A stretch of DNA of 64,000 bases from Candidatus Kapaibacterium sp. (lineage in GTDB: Bacteria > Bacteroidota > Ignavibacteria > Kapaibacteriales > UBA4661), in the NCBI GenBank assembly GCA_025455065.1, contig JALONG010000012.1, positions 1 through 64,000 of the forward strand, written 5' to 3'. A program made the position numbers and the translations under genes. Positions 8,861 to 18,163 of this stretch are shown piece by piece; positions within the stretch are counted from its first letter, which is position 1, and each line of letters begins with the position of its first letter. The notes below the pieces were generated by a model that was given only the letters and a program-made list of their open reading frames with translations, ran no database searches and was not told where the DNA came from.

Positions 8861-9011
8861 TTTCGTAGCACAGACATCGTATGTTAGCATTCCTGTCTGT
8901 GTCCAAAATGAGCGGAGCGAATAATCTTCTCAGCCAGTCTTATTACCTTGTATTTGATAATTACGCCTAGCGGCGTTAAGGGCACAGACAAGAATGTCTG
9001 TGCTACCGAAG
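8861..9011. mobile_element. MITE-like non-coding element with inverted ends
   Basis: The left end reads TTTCGTAGCACAGACAT (from 8861) and the right end ATGTCTGTGCTACCGAA (to 9010). These are inverted copies with one gap. Each end also has a partly palindromic CACAGACA...TGTCTG core. The 150-bp span between rsfS and deoC has no open frame. The layout (terminal inverted repeats, no gene, intergenic) fits a miniature transposable or REP-type element. No target-site duplication was established. Confidence 0.5.
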
Positions 9012-10421: not shown

Positions 10422-10438
10422 GAGAAGTCTTTTCTCTA
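10420..10438. terminator. short hairpin between convergent genes
   Basis: AGAGAA and TTCTCT arms with a short loop and neighbouring T/A runs lie exactly between the receiver-like gene and sprA, overlapping the sprA stop codon. It is a weak candidate for a bidirectional terminator; the stem is only about 6 bp. Confidence 0.3.
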
Positions 10439-13400
10439 AAAACTCCTACCACCGCTCAGATTCAACCGTAAATCCACTCCAAACTGCGTAACGGTGCTGC
10501 CTGCGGCGTTTGCGCCTTCGGAGAGGTTTGCTTCGTAACGGAAGAAAAGCCGCGCCGTTACTTGTTTGCTGATAGTGTAACGCATGGACGGTTCAAAGAG
10601 AATGTTCGTCGTTCCGTCTATGCGGCGGGATTGATTCGCTGTTGCGTCTCTCGGCGTAGGCGTTGCAATCACATTGGTCGAAGTGCGCAAACTGCTTCGG
10701 TAGGTCGTCTGCAAGCCAAATTCAATATCGTTGTTCATTTCAAAATCAATGCCGAGCAGTTTCAAAAGTCCCACACCGCCGATTTTCGGGAGTTCAAAAC
10801 CGCGCCGTTGGTATGTGGCTTGCAAGGTCAATTCAAACGTGTTGTCGCTTTGCACGATGCCTTGTTGGGATTGCATAATACCCAAACTTGTTTTGGTCGA
10901 AACCCGCATATTTCCTTGCAAAATCCCGTCCACTGCCTTGTCGTCGAACTGTGCCGTTACGCCGATAAGCGGCTCAAAGGAACTTTGAACAGACTGCTGG
11001 TCTAAGGTCGTAACGCCCGCTTCATTCCGCTGCGTTGCTGTGTACCGTCCTTGATACTTGCTCTCCAGTGAACCGCTCCGCAATATTCCTTTCAAAAACG
11101 GTAACTGTTCCAAGCCGTTCCAGCGAATGGCAAAATTTATATTGGGCATCAAAAAACGAAATCTTGTTGTATCTCCGTTCAGCCAGTGGAGCGCCTCTAA
11201 ACCATCTATAAACGCACTGTTCAACGCTTTTTGTCGTTTTGCCGTTGCTTCCGGAGTGTTATCTGTAATCTTCGCGGTGGCAGTATCGTATAACTTCTTT
11301 ATATTGTCTAATCCGCCAAAAGGAACCATAAGGAACGAGCGCCCGAAGGTTTCCAAACTGATTTGGTTTGAAATGCGGTATGTGTCGTTCAATATCTGAA
11401 CATTTGCCTCACGAATTTGCGTAAAAATGCGGTTATTCGTACTATCGTTTTTCGATTGCCACGACAATTCCACCTGCAAGCCCGGAATAATCTCGCGTTG
11501 CGCACGAATGTCCAACGTTGCGCCGATTTTACTCATGTCCGGCAAGTCCACACCCACAGGACGCGAGCCTTGCACACGGCGCATTTCAAAAAACGGGAAT
11601 TGATTCGACGGTTGAAACCAGCTTGTATGAGGGTCTGTCACCAAGCCCATTTGATACTCAAAGGATGGACCATAACCATTCGAGCTTGTCAAAAAGCCCG
11701 TTCCGCCGCGCACACCCGGATTTGTGGCGCTGCCTTGTTGAGTGAAACTGACGGTGAATTGGTCCCAATCAAAAACCGCACTTTTCAAGCCACGCATAAT
11801 CATCATCGCAATACTCGTATCGCTGCCGCCGGAAGGCGTTGGAACGATAGTCGCTTGCAGCCCCGGTTGGAACGTATTTTGTCCACCGCCCATTGGCGAA
11901 CTCAGCGAGGGGAAAAGTGCATTGCCCAGTTCCTTCGGACGAATACTGAATGCGGCGGTGAGGTTGTTCTGGAAACCAGCACCGTTATTGAGTGCATTCG
12001 CATCAGCAGGAGTAACGGGGAGCGCACCACCTGTTGTGGGCGTTGTCAGCGTAACGGGGCGCAAAAGCCGCTCCCAGCCGTATTGAACGCCGTAATTGCC
12101 CGTCAGATTGAAAAATTTATTGCCACCCATAAATTCAGGAAATTTCGGGCGGAAGGTGATGCGGAAATTCTGCCCGTGCCGCGTGTCCGTGCCGATATTC
12201 AGTATGGAATTTCCCTGCCCCAAACGCTCCCAAATCCGGCGCTGCACCTCGCCTGCCGGCAACGGTTTGTCGCGGGAACCGTCTTCTAACCACAAAGGAA
12301 CAAGCGTTCCGACGGTGTTCACGCTGTAATCAATGGTCGGATTCAGGAGTTCATTTTCCGACATTTTGTAGGTCAGTTGTAATTGCCGCGCTGCCTCGAA
12401 ATTGAGGATATTCGGGATGCTCACATCGGGTTGAATCCGCGAAATTTCCCGTTGGAAACTTTGGTTTGCCTCCACAGCCGCCGTAATCGTGTTCGGCACA
12501 GGCGCAAAAATTGTCCAACCACTCAACCACTGCAACACCGGTACATTTTCTGCCCACCCGAAGGGTTTTATCGGCAGTGGCGGCAAGGTGTGGTTGTAGG
12601 CAGTGCGAAAACGCCAGCCTTCAAAGGTTTTGAGCGTGACAACAGGCGATTCTTCCTTGCGGCGCACATAGTTGTAATCAACGCTGATGCGGTTCAGAAT
12701 ATCACGGAACAGGAAGAAATAAATCGGGATATTCAGCCGTGCGCCCGTGACGGCGACTTGTAAATCTTCGGTGCGGGTGCTTTGTGCCTTAATTGTTTCT
12801 TGTGCTGCATTGACCCGACTGGCAGAATCTGTTGGAAAACGTTTCTCTGCTTCGTTAAATGCTGCGACGGACAAATTCACATCATTTTGCGGCAAAAAGC
12901 GTGGCGTACTTTCCAAATTGTTGTAAGTAACCGAGAGTGGGAGCGAACTTCCTGCCCAATCTTCAGGCAAAAAGCGTTCAAAATTAAACTGCCCCGTTAC
13001 GGCAAGAGTGCGCCTATCATTGCGGTTTCCAAAGCGCTCTTCCAAGCGCGTAAAATACGGCGTTTGCATATTCAGCGTTGCCGTAACCGTTCCCAAGTCC
13101 GCAATTTTCGCCGAAGCCGTACCGACGGCGGCGAAATTTTGCATCAAATTTTCACTTATATCAGGCTTAATAAGCCTGAGTTCATTCACCCAGACAGAGG
13201 TTGTCAATTCGCTGGGAGCAACGGCAGGATTACGCACACCAAAGCTCACAAACTGGATGCGCGTCAGTGTTGGACTGCCTTTGATGCGGTATTCCCCCAA
13301 GCTGTCCGCAGGAATGACCGTCAAACCTGCGTTTGCGCCGCTCAGTTGGACAATGGGCTTTAGCGCGGTCAATTCGGGAAGTTTGATAGCGACTGCCTGC

Positions 13401-16400
13401 CAGCCGGGTTGCAAAGGAACGCTGTACTCGTAATAATTCAGCGTATCCACGCCAAAGCGGATAAAACCGAGTGCCTGCGCTTCGCTGCGTCGTGTGGGCG
13501 TGTAGGTGATATTTTCGCCCCCGTGCAGGAAAAACTTCATTTCCTTGTAAAAGAAGGCATCAAACGGGCGGAAAAACCGCGCCACAGAGCGCTCGTCGCC
13601 TTGTCGCAAGCCGTTTACCTGCATGAGCAACGATTGTTCGTTGCCGAACTGCGTCGGGTTCAAAAAGTTATTGCGATTGACCGGAGGAAACACTCCGGGA
13701 GGCATCGTGTAGAAAAATGGCGCTCCGGAATTTTCCTCTCGCCCGACAAAACCGACACTCAGCGTGGTGGAATCCAAAAGCGGAACGCCTCGCTCGGTGC
13801 GCCCCACTTGAACGGGCTGCCGAATCCACTGCGAGCCGACAAAGCGCCAATCAATAATTTGCGCCTTAAACCGCCCACCAACCCAGAGCGCCCGCACATA
13901 CTGAATGTTCGTAAAAAGCGGTCTGCCGACTTCCGTCCGTGCGCCGCGAAGCGGGATGCGGAGCGTTATCCAGCCGTTCACACTATTGACAAACTGCGGA
14001 TTGGTCGCCCTGTCCGGCGTGAGATTGACTTCGTAGCGGAAGTAATCATCGGCGCGGGCAATGATTTGACCGTTGTTCTGGTTTTGAATTTCCGTGTCGG
14101 GAAATTGAAAATCGGTAAACTGGTTGTTATTTTCTAAGCCGTTGAAGGACACAAAATCGGAATCACGCTGCTGCGCATTCGCCGCAACAGTGCTGAATCG
14201 GCGGAAATCGTAATTAAAATCATCCCGTGCAGGGTCTCGTTCACGGCGGATATTCGGGTTTGAATACAACTGTGCGGTCAAATTACGGTATTTTGCTTGC
14301 ACAAGTGGCGAAACGCTGCTTAGAGCGCTGACCAAACTATCCGATTTTTCCTGCGCATTGTTCAAACCGTCAATCCCGACATCTTCGCCCAATTCGCCTT
14401 CGGCAATACGTCCGTTGGGAGTTTCGCGTCCGGGGACAATACCGTCTTCCGTGTCTAAAATACCATTCGGAATAATGTCTTCGCTAATCTGCCCAACGTC
14501 AATGTACATCTTGGTTTGCGGGTCGCTTCGCCCATCAACGCGGAGAACAATCTCGATAAAATCCATGTTCTCGTTGTCGAAATTGAGGTTAAATGCCGAG
14601 AGCGTGCGCATAATTCCGCCCCAAATCCTGTTTTTTTCGCGGAAACCAAAGAGCGTATTTCGGAGAATGGGGTCGGCTGCGAGGCGCTTGTATTCTGTCG
14701 TGTCGCCAAGTCCCGTTGGTGGGGGAGCAGGGTTAAACAGATACGTCAAGCTGTCCACAAACGAGGGGTTGGTATTGTAAATGCCGCGTTCATAGGGATT
14801 AAAATCAATCTCCAAGGGGCGAAGCGGTGGTGTTCCCGCAATGCCGACTGCCACAGCGCGGTTCGGATACACCTGCGTCGGCGGCACACGCCCTTCGTTG
14901 AAGGTGTACCAGCGCATCGCGCCACGATAGCGTTGCGCCGAATCCAGCCGCGTCAGCGTTTGCAAATTCGGAATACCCGTATTTTGCGGAGGCGATGCGT
15001 ACTTCCACTGTGCTGCTTGCACACCAAGCGCGTAAATACGCTGTGTTGCCTCGAAATCGTCAATGTACACAGCTGCTTTGTTACTGTCGCTGGCGATTTC
15101 GGACGGGCGCGTATTCGGGTTCGAGAGCGACCACGCAGCCTCGCCTTTGATGTTGAAGCTGGACGGCGCTTTAGTGTCGTAAAAAGGCAGCCAATCCAGC
15201 GCTTTGGTCAGCCAATCCGCGTTCAATGTTGCTTGCCCGTCCACGCCAAGCATCGTGTTACTGAGCGGCTCTTCGCTAAGGCGGATGCGGGCTGCGGGGT
15301 TGTCCATGGAATAATTCACCACCGTCAGCCCAAGGTCAAGTTTCAAATCCCGCGAGCGCAAAAAGGATTTCGTGTCGAGGTCAAGCCTGAGTCCAAGCAT
15401 GGAGCGGGTTGCGAGGTTAAATGCGTCGTTTTGTTCGTATTCCACTTCCACATTCGCATTGGGCAAAAGCGCTTGCGGATTCAAAATTTCCACCTGCCCC
15501 GTAAAATACTCCACGCGAAAATCTTGAAACTCCGTCAAAACCGCACCATTCAAGCGCACTTTCACGCTGCCGGGCGCAAGGTTAAAGGCATTGGGAAGGT
15601 TAATACGATTGCTCGCCTGCCCCGACACTTCACCCGAAATAACGAAACGGTCAAAACGCGCATCAAGCCTTGCGGCATCACGTGTTGTGTCGTACACGGA
15701 GGCAAAAATAAACTGATTCGCTTGGTCGGCATTGCCTTTGGAAGTGAAATAATCAATCAACCCTCGGCGAAACGGCTCAAGGCTTGTGAAGGTGATTTCA
15801 CCACGTGCTTGGTCGAAAATATATCCCAAATGAATATCAAACAGACCGTCGGGAGTAGCAGCACCGCTTGTGTTGTTTACCCTATCCACACCAAGCACCG
15901 TAGCGAGTTTATCTTGTGCACCCGGCAAAATATCGGTAGAATCGTTGTTTTGACGGAGATACCAAAAATTGATGCGTGTGTCTTTGGGGTCGCGGCTGAC
16001 ATTGGTTGCGCCGATAAAATAGACGTTCTGACGCTGCCGCGCCCAAATATTGCGAAAGGCGGGCTGCATATTCGGGCGATAAATAAGTTGCAAGACCGAT
16101 ATTTTTGCTGTGTCAATAGCGGGGTCAATGGTGTTTTGTAGCGTTCCATAGACAATATCGTCTTCATTCGCCTGTGTCGCGCCTTCCAAGCGGTAAGCAA
16201 TCGCGTAACTGCGGTCGCGGCGTAAATTCAAAATGCGGAGTGTTCCCAAGTTGGCATCAAAGGTGTAGCGCTCGTTTTCACGGAGCAGACGGAATCGCCC
16301 TTTTTCGACAAATCCCGCATTGATGCCGGTTGAATCAAACAAACGGCGTTTTTCGGCAAGCGTGTAAGAAGGAGTGCCGTTGATAAGCGTGTCACGGCGG

Positions 16401-18163
16401 GCTTCGGAGAGCGGACGCAGTGTATCTATGGCAAGCACGTCTGCTGCTTGCACATCACGCAAATCGGGTGTACTTTCCCAGACTTCAACCGCTTTGACAC
16501 GGTAGAGCTGCGTGTTTACGGTTGCCTGAAGCGGAAAACCACCGCGCTCGAAAACGGGCCAAACAACGGTTTTGTGGGCAAGATTAATAAAAAAGTGGTT
16601 GTCGGCGTAGTCATATGCACGAAGCATAATCGGCTGTTTCACCGAACCGCCTTTGACCGTAGCGACGCGGCTTTGACCACGTTTCATCGAAGCAACGGTT
16701 TTGAGATAAACGGGACCAAATTGAAAATCCGCCCGAACACCAAAGAGCGCCTGACTTCCGCCAATAAACGCCGACGGCGAGTTCAAACTGACATTGCCAA
16801 ATTCGATGCGACGGAAGATTTCATCGGGTTCGCCGTCGTAGGCAAGGCGCGTGAGGTTGTCGAACTCGAATTGGCGCAGCGTGTTCATATCCAAATTGAT
16901 ATTGAACTTATCGCCCAATTTCGCATCCACGTTTGCTTGCACATTCGGCTGAAAAACCGGAACCCACTGCACTTGACCAAGCGTTGAAGCCTGTCCGCCA
17001 AGCGAAGTATTCCACATAGAACCGATGCGTAAATTTATCTCAATGTTCGCATTTAAGCGCAATTCAGGCTTGCCGAAGATAGTCGTGAGGGGGTTTTGCG
17101 GAAACGGCACGTTAAAATTATTCGCCTGCCCCAAAATGCTGGACAGTTCAAGTTTGAAGGGACGACGAAAATCGTAATGCTGCAAAATAGAATCCTGCGC
17201 TTGACGGCGCATAAAATCGGTGCGATTGTTCAAATACTCATCCAAAGGCAGCGTTTGTTCAGGGCGGTATTCCGACCCCAAAAGCCTGTCGCCGAGTTTC
17301 ATACGGAGCGCATTAGAAAGCTGCGTCGAATCAAACTTCGCTTGAAAATTGTAGGTCTGACCGCCAAAGGGAATTGCCTCCGTACCTTTCCGCGAAACAG
17401 CCCCGTCCACCGCACCACGCCTTACGCCGAGCGAATCCGCCCAAGCATTCACATCCACCGAGGGCGTACTGAGCAAGGACAAACGCTGTGCCGCTAAAGC
17501 ACGGATGATGTTTTCCGTCGTGAGCGCTGCGCTCGTGCTGAGAACAGCATTGGTACTTAAAGAAGCATTTGTGCTGAGCGGCGCATTGATACTGGTTTGG
17601 GGAGTATCGTCGGGCGGCGTTGTGTTTTTGGGTTGCTGCTGGTTCAGTGTCCGCGAAGTGCGCTGTACGCGGCGCGGAATGGGGCGTGAGGTGGTGTCTT
17701 GCCCCTCACCCTGCCCTCTCCCAAGGGGAGAGGGTTCCAGAGGCAGTAGAGACAGTCTTGGATTTTGCCCCTCGCCCTTTGGGAGAGGGGTTGGGGTGAG
17801 GGAAAAAGCAACATCATCTAACAGAATCTCATATTTCAACATTGCCGCATGATTCTTGCACAAATACGCCAAACTGCTTGCATAGGGCGATTCTACTAGG
17901 ATTGTGCGCTCTAATGCGGGATTTTTCCCCAGCACACTCCAAAAACCTAAGGCAAGGTCAAATTCGAGAAATTCTATTTCGGCAAGTAATTCCAGCGAGA
18001 ATACTGCGCCGGAAGGAGCAGCACTCAAAGCCGCAGCGCTCAAAAGAATACTGCACAAAGCAAGCACAATCAATGCGTAGCGGTGCAGCAGCGACAGCGA
18101 GAACGAGCGTTGAGATTGGGGACGCAAAGGAGCAAGTGTGGTATGGCGCGAGGAGAACGGCAT
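10436..18163 (-). CDS. sprA: cell-surface protein SprA (T9SS outer-membrane translocon)
   Basis: A 2,575-residue protein. SprA is the 36-stranded outer-membrane barrel through which type IX secretion cargo leaves the cell, and is needed for gliding in Flavobacterium. An N-terminal signal peptide (hydrophobic LIVLALCSILLSAAALSAA, residues 31-49) precedes a very long chain of short amphipathic strands with no other domain type. Family-like stretches include DRSYAIAYRLEGAT, AAVYIDDFEATQR, and repeated NGW/WVNELRL blocks. It is slightly longer than the usual 2,350-2,450 residues. Part of the excess is residues 121-155, which are encoded by an inserted palindromic repeat (17702-17802). It is complete and unbroken, stands apart from other T9SS genes, and agrees with the T9SS-tailed proteins elsewhere in the window. 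Confidence 0.93.
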   Translation of the reverse strand: MPFSSRHTTLAPLRPQSQRSFSLSLLHRYALIVLALCSILLSAAALSAAPSGAVFSLELLAEIEFLEFDLALGFWSVLGKNPALERTILVESPYASSLAYLCKNHAAMLKYEILLDDVAFSLTPTPLPKGEGQNPRLSLLPLEPSPLGRGQGEGQDTTSRPIPRRVQRTSRTLNQQQPKNTTPPDDTPQTSINAPLSTNASLSTNAVLSTSAALTTENIIRALAAQRLSLLSTPSVDVNAWADSLGVRRGAVDGAVSRKGTEAIPFGGQTYNFQAKFDSTQLSNALRMKLGDRLLGSEYRPEQTLPLDEYLNNRTDFMRRQAQDSILQHYDFRRPFKLELSSILGQANNFNVPFPQNPLTTIFGKPELRLNANIEINLRIGSMWNTSLGGQASTLGQVQWVPVFQPNVQANVDAKLGDKFNINLDMNTLRQFEFDNLTRLAYDGEPDEIFRRIEFGNVSLNSPSAFIGGSQALFGVRADFQFGPVYLKTVASMKRGQSRVATVKGGSVKQPIMLRAYDYADNHFFINLAHKTVVWPVFERGGFPLQATVNTQLYRVKAVEVWESTPDLRDVQAADVLAIDTLRPLSEARRDTLINGTPSYTLAEKRRLFDSTGINAGFVEKGRFRLLRENERYTFDANLGTLRILNLRRDRSYAIAYRLEGATQANEDDIVYGTLQNTIDPAIDTAKISVLQLIYRPNMQPAFRNIWARQRQNVYFIGATNVSRDPKDTRINFWYLRQNNDSTDILPGAQDKLATVLGVDRVNNTSGAATPDGLFDIHLGYIFDQARGEITFTSLEPFRRGLIDYFTSKGNADQANQFIFASVYDTTRDAARLDARFDRFVISGEVSGQASNRINLPNAFNLAPGSVKVRLNGAVLTEFQDFRVEYFTGQVEILNPQALLPNANVEVEYEQNDAFNLATRSMLGLRLDLDTKSFLRSRDLKLDLGLTVVNYSMDNPAARIRLSEEPLSNTMLGVDGQATLNADWLTKALDWLPFYDTKAPSSFNIKGEAAWSLSNPNTRPSEIASDSNKAAVYIDDFEATQRIYALGVQAAQWKYASPPQNTGIPNLQTLTRLDSAQRYRGAMRWYTFNEGRVPPTQVYPNRAVAVGIAGTPPLRPLEIDFNPYERGIYNTNPSFVDSLTYLFNPAPPPTGLGDTTEYKRLAADPILRNTLFGFREKNRIWGGIMRTLSAFNLNFDNENMDFIEIVLRVDGRSDPQTKMYIDVGQISEDIIPNGILDTEDGIVPGRETPNGRIAEGELGEDVGIDGLNNAQEKSDSLVSALSSVSPLVQAKYRNLTAQLYSNPNIRRERDPARDDFNYDFRRFSTVAANAQQRDSDFVSFNGLENNNQFTDFQFPDTEIQNQNNGQIIARADDYFRYEVNLTPDRATNPQFVNSVNGWITLRIPLRGARTEVGRPLFTNIQYVRALWVGGRFKAQIIDWRFVGSQWIRQPVQVGRTERGVPLLDSTTLSVGFVGREENSGAPFFYTMPPGVFPPVNRNNFLNPTQFGNEQSLLMQVNGLRQGDERSVARFFRPFDAFFYKEMKFFLHGGENITYTPTRRSEAQALGFIRFGVDTLNYYEYSVPLQPGWQAVAIKLPELTALKPIVQLSGANAGLTVIPADSLGEYRIKGSPTLTRIQFVSFGVRNPAVAPSELTTSVWVNELRLIKPDISENLMQNFAAVGTASAKIADLGTVTATLNMQTPYFTRLEERFGNRNDRRTLAVTGQFNFERFLPEDWAGSSLPLSVTYNNLESTPRFLPQNDVNLSVAAFNEAEKRFPTDSASRVNAAQETIKAQSTRTEDLQVAVTGARLNIPIYFFLFRDILNRISVDYNYVRRKEESPVVTLKTFEGWRFRTAYNHTLPPLPIKPFGWAENVPVLQWLSGWTIFAPVPNTITAAVEANQSFQREISRIQPDVSIPNILNFEAARQLQLTYKMSENELLNPTIDYSVNTVGTLVPLWLEDGSRDKPLPAGEVQRRIWERLGQGNSILNIGTDTRHGQNFRITFRPKFPEFMGGNKFFNLTGNYGVQYGWERLLRPVTLTTPTTGGALPVTPADANALNNGAGFQNNLTAAFSIRPKELGNALFPSLSSPMGGGQNTFQPGLQATIVPTPSGGSDTSIAMMIMRGLKSAVFDWDQFTVSFTQQGSATNPGVRGGTGFLTSSNGYGPSFEYQMGLVTDPHTSWFQPSNQFPFFEMRRVQGSRPVGVDLPDMSKIGATLDIRAQREIIPGLQVELSWQSKNDSTNNRIFTQIREANVQILNDTYRISNQISLETFGRSFLMVPFGGLDNIKKLYDTATAKITDNTPEATAKRQKALNSAFIDGLEALHWLNGDTTRFRFLMPNINFAIRWNGLEQLPFLKGILRSGSLESKYQGRYTATQRNEAGVTTLDQQSVQSSFEPLIGVTAQFDDKAVDGILQGNMRVSTKTSLGIMQSQQGIVQSDNTFELTLQATYQRRGFELPKIGGVGLLKLLGIDFEMNNDIEFGLQTTYRSSLRTSTNVIATPTPRDATANQSRRIDGTTNILFEPSMRYTISKQVTARLFFRYEANLSEGANAAGSTVTQFGVDLRLNLSGGRSF
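17702..17802. repeat. palindromic repeat inserted in frame in sprA
   Basis: The two ends are inverted copies: CCCTCACCCTGCCCTCTCCC at the left and, read on the other strand, CCCTCACCCCAACCCCTCTC at the right, separated by a short unique stretch. The whole unit is C-rich on the plus strand, unlike the flanks, and stays open in the sprA frame, giving LTPTPLPKGEG ... PSPLGRGQGEG at residues 121-155. It lies just after the predicted exported N-terminus, where extra residues may be tolerated. C-rich palindromes with this look are known as dispersed intergenic repeats in several bacteria. Confidence 0.75.

Follow-up and report, generated by a model that had tools for sequence, protein, structure and literature searches.

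A dispersed C-rich palindromic repeat lies in frame within a sprA-like gene of Candidatus Kapaibacterium

The window examined in this study is a stretch of 64,000 nucleotides from a Candidatus Kapaibacterium genome. It carries a sprA-like ORF on the minus strand (10436..18163) that codes for 2575 amino acids with no interruption and that includes the Pfam domain SprA_N at residues 1323-1765. Codons 122-154 of this ORF (17702..17800, minus strand) constitute a repeat-derived segment with the predicted sequence LTPTPLPKGEGQNPRLSLLPLEPSPLGRGQGEG, and the junction between SprA and the repeat can be followed in the predicted translation, for example as YEILLDDVAFSLTPTPLPK. The underlying DNA consists of two inverted units. 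REP unit 1 (17703..17734; CCCCTCACCCTGCCCTCTCCCAAGGGGAGAGGG) forms the C-rich hairpin CCCTCTCCCAAGGGGAGAGGG with the arm CCCCTCACCC, and a spacer of 34 nt (17735..17768) separates it from the inverted REP unit 2 (17769..17802; CCCTCGCCCTTTGGGAGAGGGGTTGGGGTGAGGG). The initial annotation, which proposed that a C-rich palindromic repeat is present in frame in sprA, is confirmed. Its count of about 35 inserted residues is replaced by 33, and its placement of the segment right behind the exported N-terminus holds only roughly, given that the insert is found ~75 residues downstream of the apparent membrane or signal segment. An AlphaFold model of the SprA N-terminus (5 sequences; mean pLDDT 31) was uninformative.

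Against an expectation of 0.04 occurrences, the window contains the core hairpin pattern two times, in each case within the sprA insert, and the 116-nt repeat stretch yields folding z scores of -4.5 and -5.6 on the two strands when compared with dinucleotide shuffles. On the basis of these values, a chance origin of the hairpins is excluded. Over 21 nt (CCTCACCCCAACCCCTCTCCC), unit 2 is also identical to repeats that this genome carries on contigs C63 and C80, and this exact 21-mer is present at three genomic places, with the SprA copy counted.

The source genome (G000) comprises 5.6 Mb in 131 contigs, with sprA residing on a contig of 131 kb. As the initial annotation had anticipated, a search of this genome located the repeat elsewhere, at ~14 places besides sprA, and the majority of these copies lie between ORFs. 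The usual form of the element is an inverted pair of about 91-100 nt. Like the intragenic REPs described below, it is a short dispersed palindrome with many copies that are mostly extragenic, and its sprA copy is situated wholly within an ORF of known function whose frame is kept open. Other intragenic copies in the same genome are found in an MmeI-type restriction-methylase (L006), directly before the NPPF motif, in an exported protein (L004), directly after the signal segment, and in AddA (L209), where a single degenerate unit is present. A further copy (L005:183-3035, minus strand) is located where the ORF of an RND efflux pump meets that of an outer-membrane efflux protein. The two are read as one ORF, and this arrangement possibly represents a gene fusion made by the repeat.

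Alignment of SprA with its relatives revealed that the segment is absent from the orthologues of congeners G001, G003, G004, G005, G006 and G007, wherein the conserved body of the protein aligns. Four of the congener sequences are identical to those of Ca. Kapaibacterium SKYG85 and 336R and from Ignavibacteria Clear-D13 and RE-18aug17-109, and these named relatives are metagenome-assembled genomes. In a member of the sister genus within the same family (G009), a REP dimer occupies the same SprA linker (PHPNLLPKGEGTRFEALSRHISVGERVGVREE). Its left hairpin is in the frame used by the source genome and its right hairpin is in another frame, and therefore the G009 dimer was most likely captured independently, at a site that tolerates insertions. 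The linker is of low complexity and variable length in every relative compared, which might suggest that the segment is a true, conserved Pro/Gly-rich SprA linker that merely resembles the repeat. The DNA is nearly identical to dispersed intergenic repeats and is palindromic beyond chance, and the congeners carry SprA without it. We consider this reading to be refuted by the orthologues that lack the segment and by the presence of the repeat elsewhere in the genome, and hence we assign it almost no probability.

Repeat copies are far from confined to this genome. Candidate places number >200 in G005 and ~20 each in G002 and G006, and >12 other genes of related bacteria were found to have captured such a repeat in frame; the interrupted host genes were identified by using Pfam and NCBIfam. 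In G005 and G002, in-frame dimers of 91-95 nt are present in the genes for DNA polymerase I, LeuRS, RecG, MnmE, AddA, alpha-2-macroglobulin (A2M) and an ABC/M1-peptidase protein, and in the adjoining genes for MenD and MenH, with variant dimers located in frame in MoeA and glutamate synthase (GltB). For several filled sites, we could identify uninserted orthologues with closely similar flanks, revealing clean gains wherein the new segment replaces between none and ~30 nt of the target. For example, MnmE reads IDLLENTPEASKDAIFEGLHLSV in G006, which is uninserted, and IDLLKASDTLIPTLLPEGEGQDFMTLQKPSPSGRGLGEGLYLSV in G005, which carries the insertion. Thus, the repeat is present in frame in several unrelated conserved genes and absent from their orthologues, which is the distribution that characterizes coding palindromic elements. 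The LeuS, MnmE and A2M targets show a TGARGG microhomology where the insertion ends on the right, and we make no claim on the basis of these three cases. At the peptide level, query matches were obtained in 6 of 123 genomes of the order, all in one family. The C-rich DNA motif is also carried by plasmids from unrelated phyla, namely those of Xanthomonas, Azospirillum, enterobacteria and cyanobacteria, including a Pseudanabaena plasmid in which the same C-rich REP dimer is read inside an annotated DNA methyltransferase (L305:2701-3471, minus strand; WP_281009867.1): PSPPSPLSQKGRGGERESEILSPSPSGRGARGEG.

The hinge of the LeuRS editing domain (L174 and L191; G000 and G002) has also received other, unrelated insertions of ~30-50 residues. 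The one in G000 resembles a translated heptamer-type repeat (PMTNDQSTNDQ).

Given that the repeat is multicopy and that several of the matches in related genomes fall at contig ends, a repeat-mediated misassembly might be suspected to have placed an intergenic copy into sprA. Such a chimera is very unlikely, however, as the two flanks form continuous SprA in one frame within the 131-kb contig, and the same in-frame pattern recurs in independent genomes and genes, which random joins would not yield.

An unbiased tiling of G005 covers 1.156 Mb (~22% of the genome), and ORFs account for 88% of the DNA in it. Among the 38 repeat clusters in this tiling, nine are inside an ORF and five are deep inside, whereas ~33 would be expected in ORFs on the basis of ORF content. 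Therefore, most insertions into genes must be removed or avoided. The hosts of the deep copies are MnmE, GltB, an Mfd-like protein, PolI and a 1650-aa protein.

Three of the six reading frames are open in 36-38 of the 39 full-length elements that we compiled. All nine deep intragenic full-length copies are in one open frame, which reads (L)IPTLLPEGEGQD...PSPSGRGLGEG and which SprA uses as well. Were the three open frames equally likely, use of this frame in 9/9 copies would be expected about once in ~20,000 trials, with the caveat that these counts are partly query-biased. Because the query that recovered four of the nine was itself in this frame, the weight of this comparison falls on the ~5 frame-blind cases, which by themselves give ~1 in 240. 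A further deep insertion, in a membrane protein (L103), departs from the favoured frame, as do portions of the inserts in GltB and MmeI. Thus, the frame preference is strong, yet not absolute.

The peptide encoded in the favoured frame is hydrophilic and linker-like, and this preference, together with the intact hairpins, would fit a process in which the repeat was selected as a flexible linker or as an RNA or DNA hairpin that regulates sprA expression. The recurrent use of certain sites across species can be cited in the same sense: SprA is occupied in G000 and G009, AddA in G000 and G002, and RecG in four species. However, the host genes are functionally unrelated and the majority of orthologues carry no repeat. 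Moreover, the sites are loops or linkers whose length also varies for other reasons (LeuRS of G000 and G002), so that site reuse is explained by tolerance. Overall, we give adaptive capture only a small chance of being correct.

Our preferred explanation, which we hold to be very probable, is that a dispersed and probably non-autonomous REPIN-like dimer inserted into the SprA linker and was captured in frame as a neutral addition. According to this model, a C-rich REP hairpin dimer would have entered SprA in the little-conserved linker that connects the export segment with the conserved part of the protein. Several frames of the element contain no stop codon, which would be accidental, and therefore an insertion whose net length preserves the frame could be read as a hydrophilic linker of 33 residues, rich in Pro, Gly, Glu and Ser, that is tolerated by the protein. 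Copies would be retained only where both the site and the frame are harmless. We infer that the SprA insert is translated and that its peptide is neutral. Mobilization would presumably be carried out by a HuH tyrosine transposase of the RAYT or TIRYT type. No C-rich REPs flanking Y1 transposase genes were found, though Y1 transposases exist in these genomes, and because no transposase gene was found next to the C-rich REPs, their distribution is the evidence from which mobility is argued.

The capture of mobile palindromes as coding sequence is already known though uncommon, since both intragenic REPs and Rickettsia palindromic elements (RPEs) have been described previously. Intragenic REPs with GTAG or CGTC tags occur in several phyla as inverted dimers coding for 20-30 amino acids (Di Nocera et al. 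2013; PMC3733652), and their hosts include genes for DNA pol I, UvrD, recB and other replication or repair proteins, tRNA synthetases and tRNA modification. In that survey, two Xanthomonas species have REPs that differ from each other at nearly one and the same position of recB (PMC3733652). Our elements are likewise inverted dimers within ORFs, and the hosts PolI, RecG, AddA, LeuRS and MnmE closely resemble that list. They differ in being found in Kapabacteria-type genomes, in including sprA and in having many uninserted congener orthologues for comparison. Inspection of the C-rich units revealed no GTAG or CGTC tag, the feature that defines the two surveyed superfamilies, and we do not place them in either.

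RPEs are found in frame in many conserved genes, between genes and also in RNA genes (Ogata et al. 2000, 2002; reviewed in PMC2229807), and biochemical work on one of their hosts, Gmk, showed that this protein functions with its insert (PMC2229807). The analogy to RPEs drawn in the initial annotation holds with regard to a dispersed palindrome that has become in-frame coding sequence of many conserved genes and also resides between genes. It does not extend to the element itself, which belongs to a different family, or to the host, which is a Kapabacteria/Ignavibacteria-type genome rather than Rickettsia. To our knowledge, RPE sequences are unrelated to the C-rich REP. With these adjustments, the initial interpretation is supported as essentially right, and the two conditions it had named as refuting it both turned out in its favour, since congener SprA lacks the segment and the genome holds further, mainly intergenic copies.

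REPINs consist of two inverted REPs and are dispersed and mostly intergenic (Bertels and Rainey 2011; PMC3116915). The C-rich element shares these features, with an inverted pair of ~90-100 nt overall, and differs in that no linked cognate RAYT was found. The insertions suggest that the two REPs may move together. The terminal repeats (TIRs) of TIRYT transposases carry the motif GGGGWSAS (PMC3733652). SprA unit 2 contains GGGGTGAG, which fits this motif, and we treat this resemblance as a lead and not as a classification; a Y1 transposase flanked by the C-rich repeat was not found. With the SprA case, the few systems known to turn a mobile palindrome into protein gain both a new lineage and a secretion gene, and the many pairs of filled and empty genes should permit the rate of insertion tolerance and the frame used to be measured.

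In G006, G007 and the source genome, the recG gene carries a whole Y1/HuH transposase in frame. It is bounded by the RecG sequences DEQHRFG and VMSATPIPRT and thus lies between helicase motifs II and III. These chimeras of RecG with a RAYT-like HuH transposase are located at L202:283-2799 (minus strand) in G006, at L210:2-2479 (plus strand) in G007, and at L207/L208 in the source genome, where the chimera spans contigs C58 and C20, which overlap there. In all three, Pfam recognizes Y1_Tnp as well as the two RecG domains, and no other RecG with an embedded transposase was seen in the 123 genomes of the order. At the same RecG site, G005 has the C-rich dimer, whereas the loop is short in G001 and G002. 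The transposases are flanked by palindromes of the GTAGCACAGACATTCTTGTCTGTG type (GTAG-type) that are read as VAQTFLSV and QTRMSVP. They share 44-54% mutual identity, compared with 86-93% for the C-terminal part of RecG, and therefore they either are independent insertions or evolve rapidly; dN/dS values are saturated. The catalytic motifs are retained in the predicted proteins. A similar transposase is found in Eco57I-type DNA methylases, with an open frame in G100 (L296:1-2049, minus strand) and with one in-frame stop in G001 (L226).

We speculate, with considerable doubt, that this genus harbours a REP/RAYT system that resides partly inside host proteins, wherein the transposase within RecG would be produced as one domain of a repair helicase and thereby shielded from loss, and dimers of the SprA type would be its non-autonomous counterpart. 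An incomplete literature search found no published report of an in-frame RAYT within RecG. If the chimeras are translated whole, they would represent a host enzyme that contains an in-frame transposase, and the persistence of RAYTs as single-copy genes would become testable. GTAG-type REPs are a second, very abundant REP family in the genus, and the window includes one of them (GTAGCACAGACATTCTTGTCTGTG) between ORFs at 8983-9006 on the minus strand.
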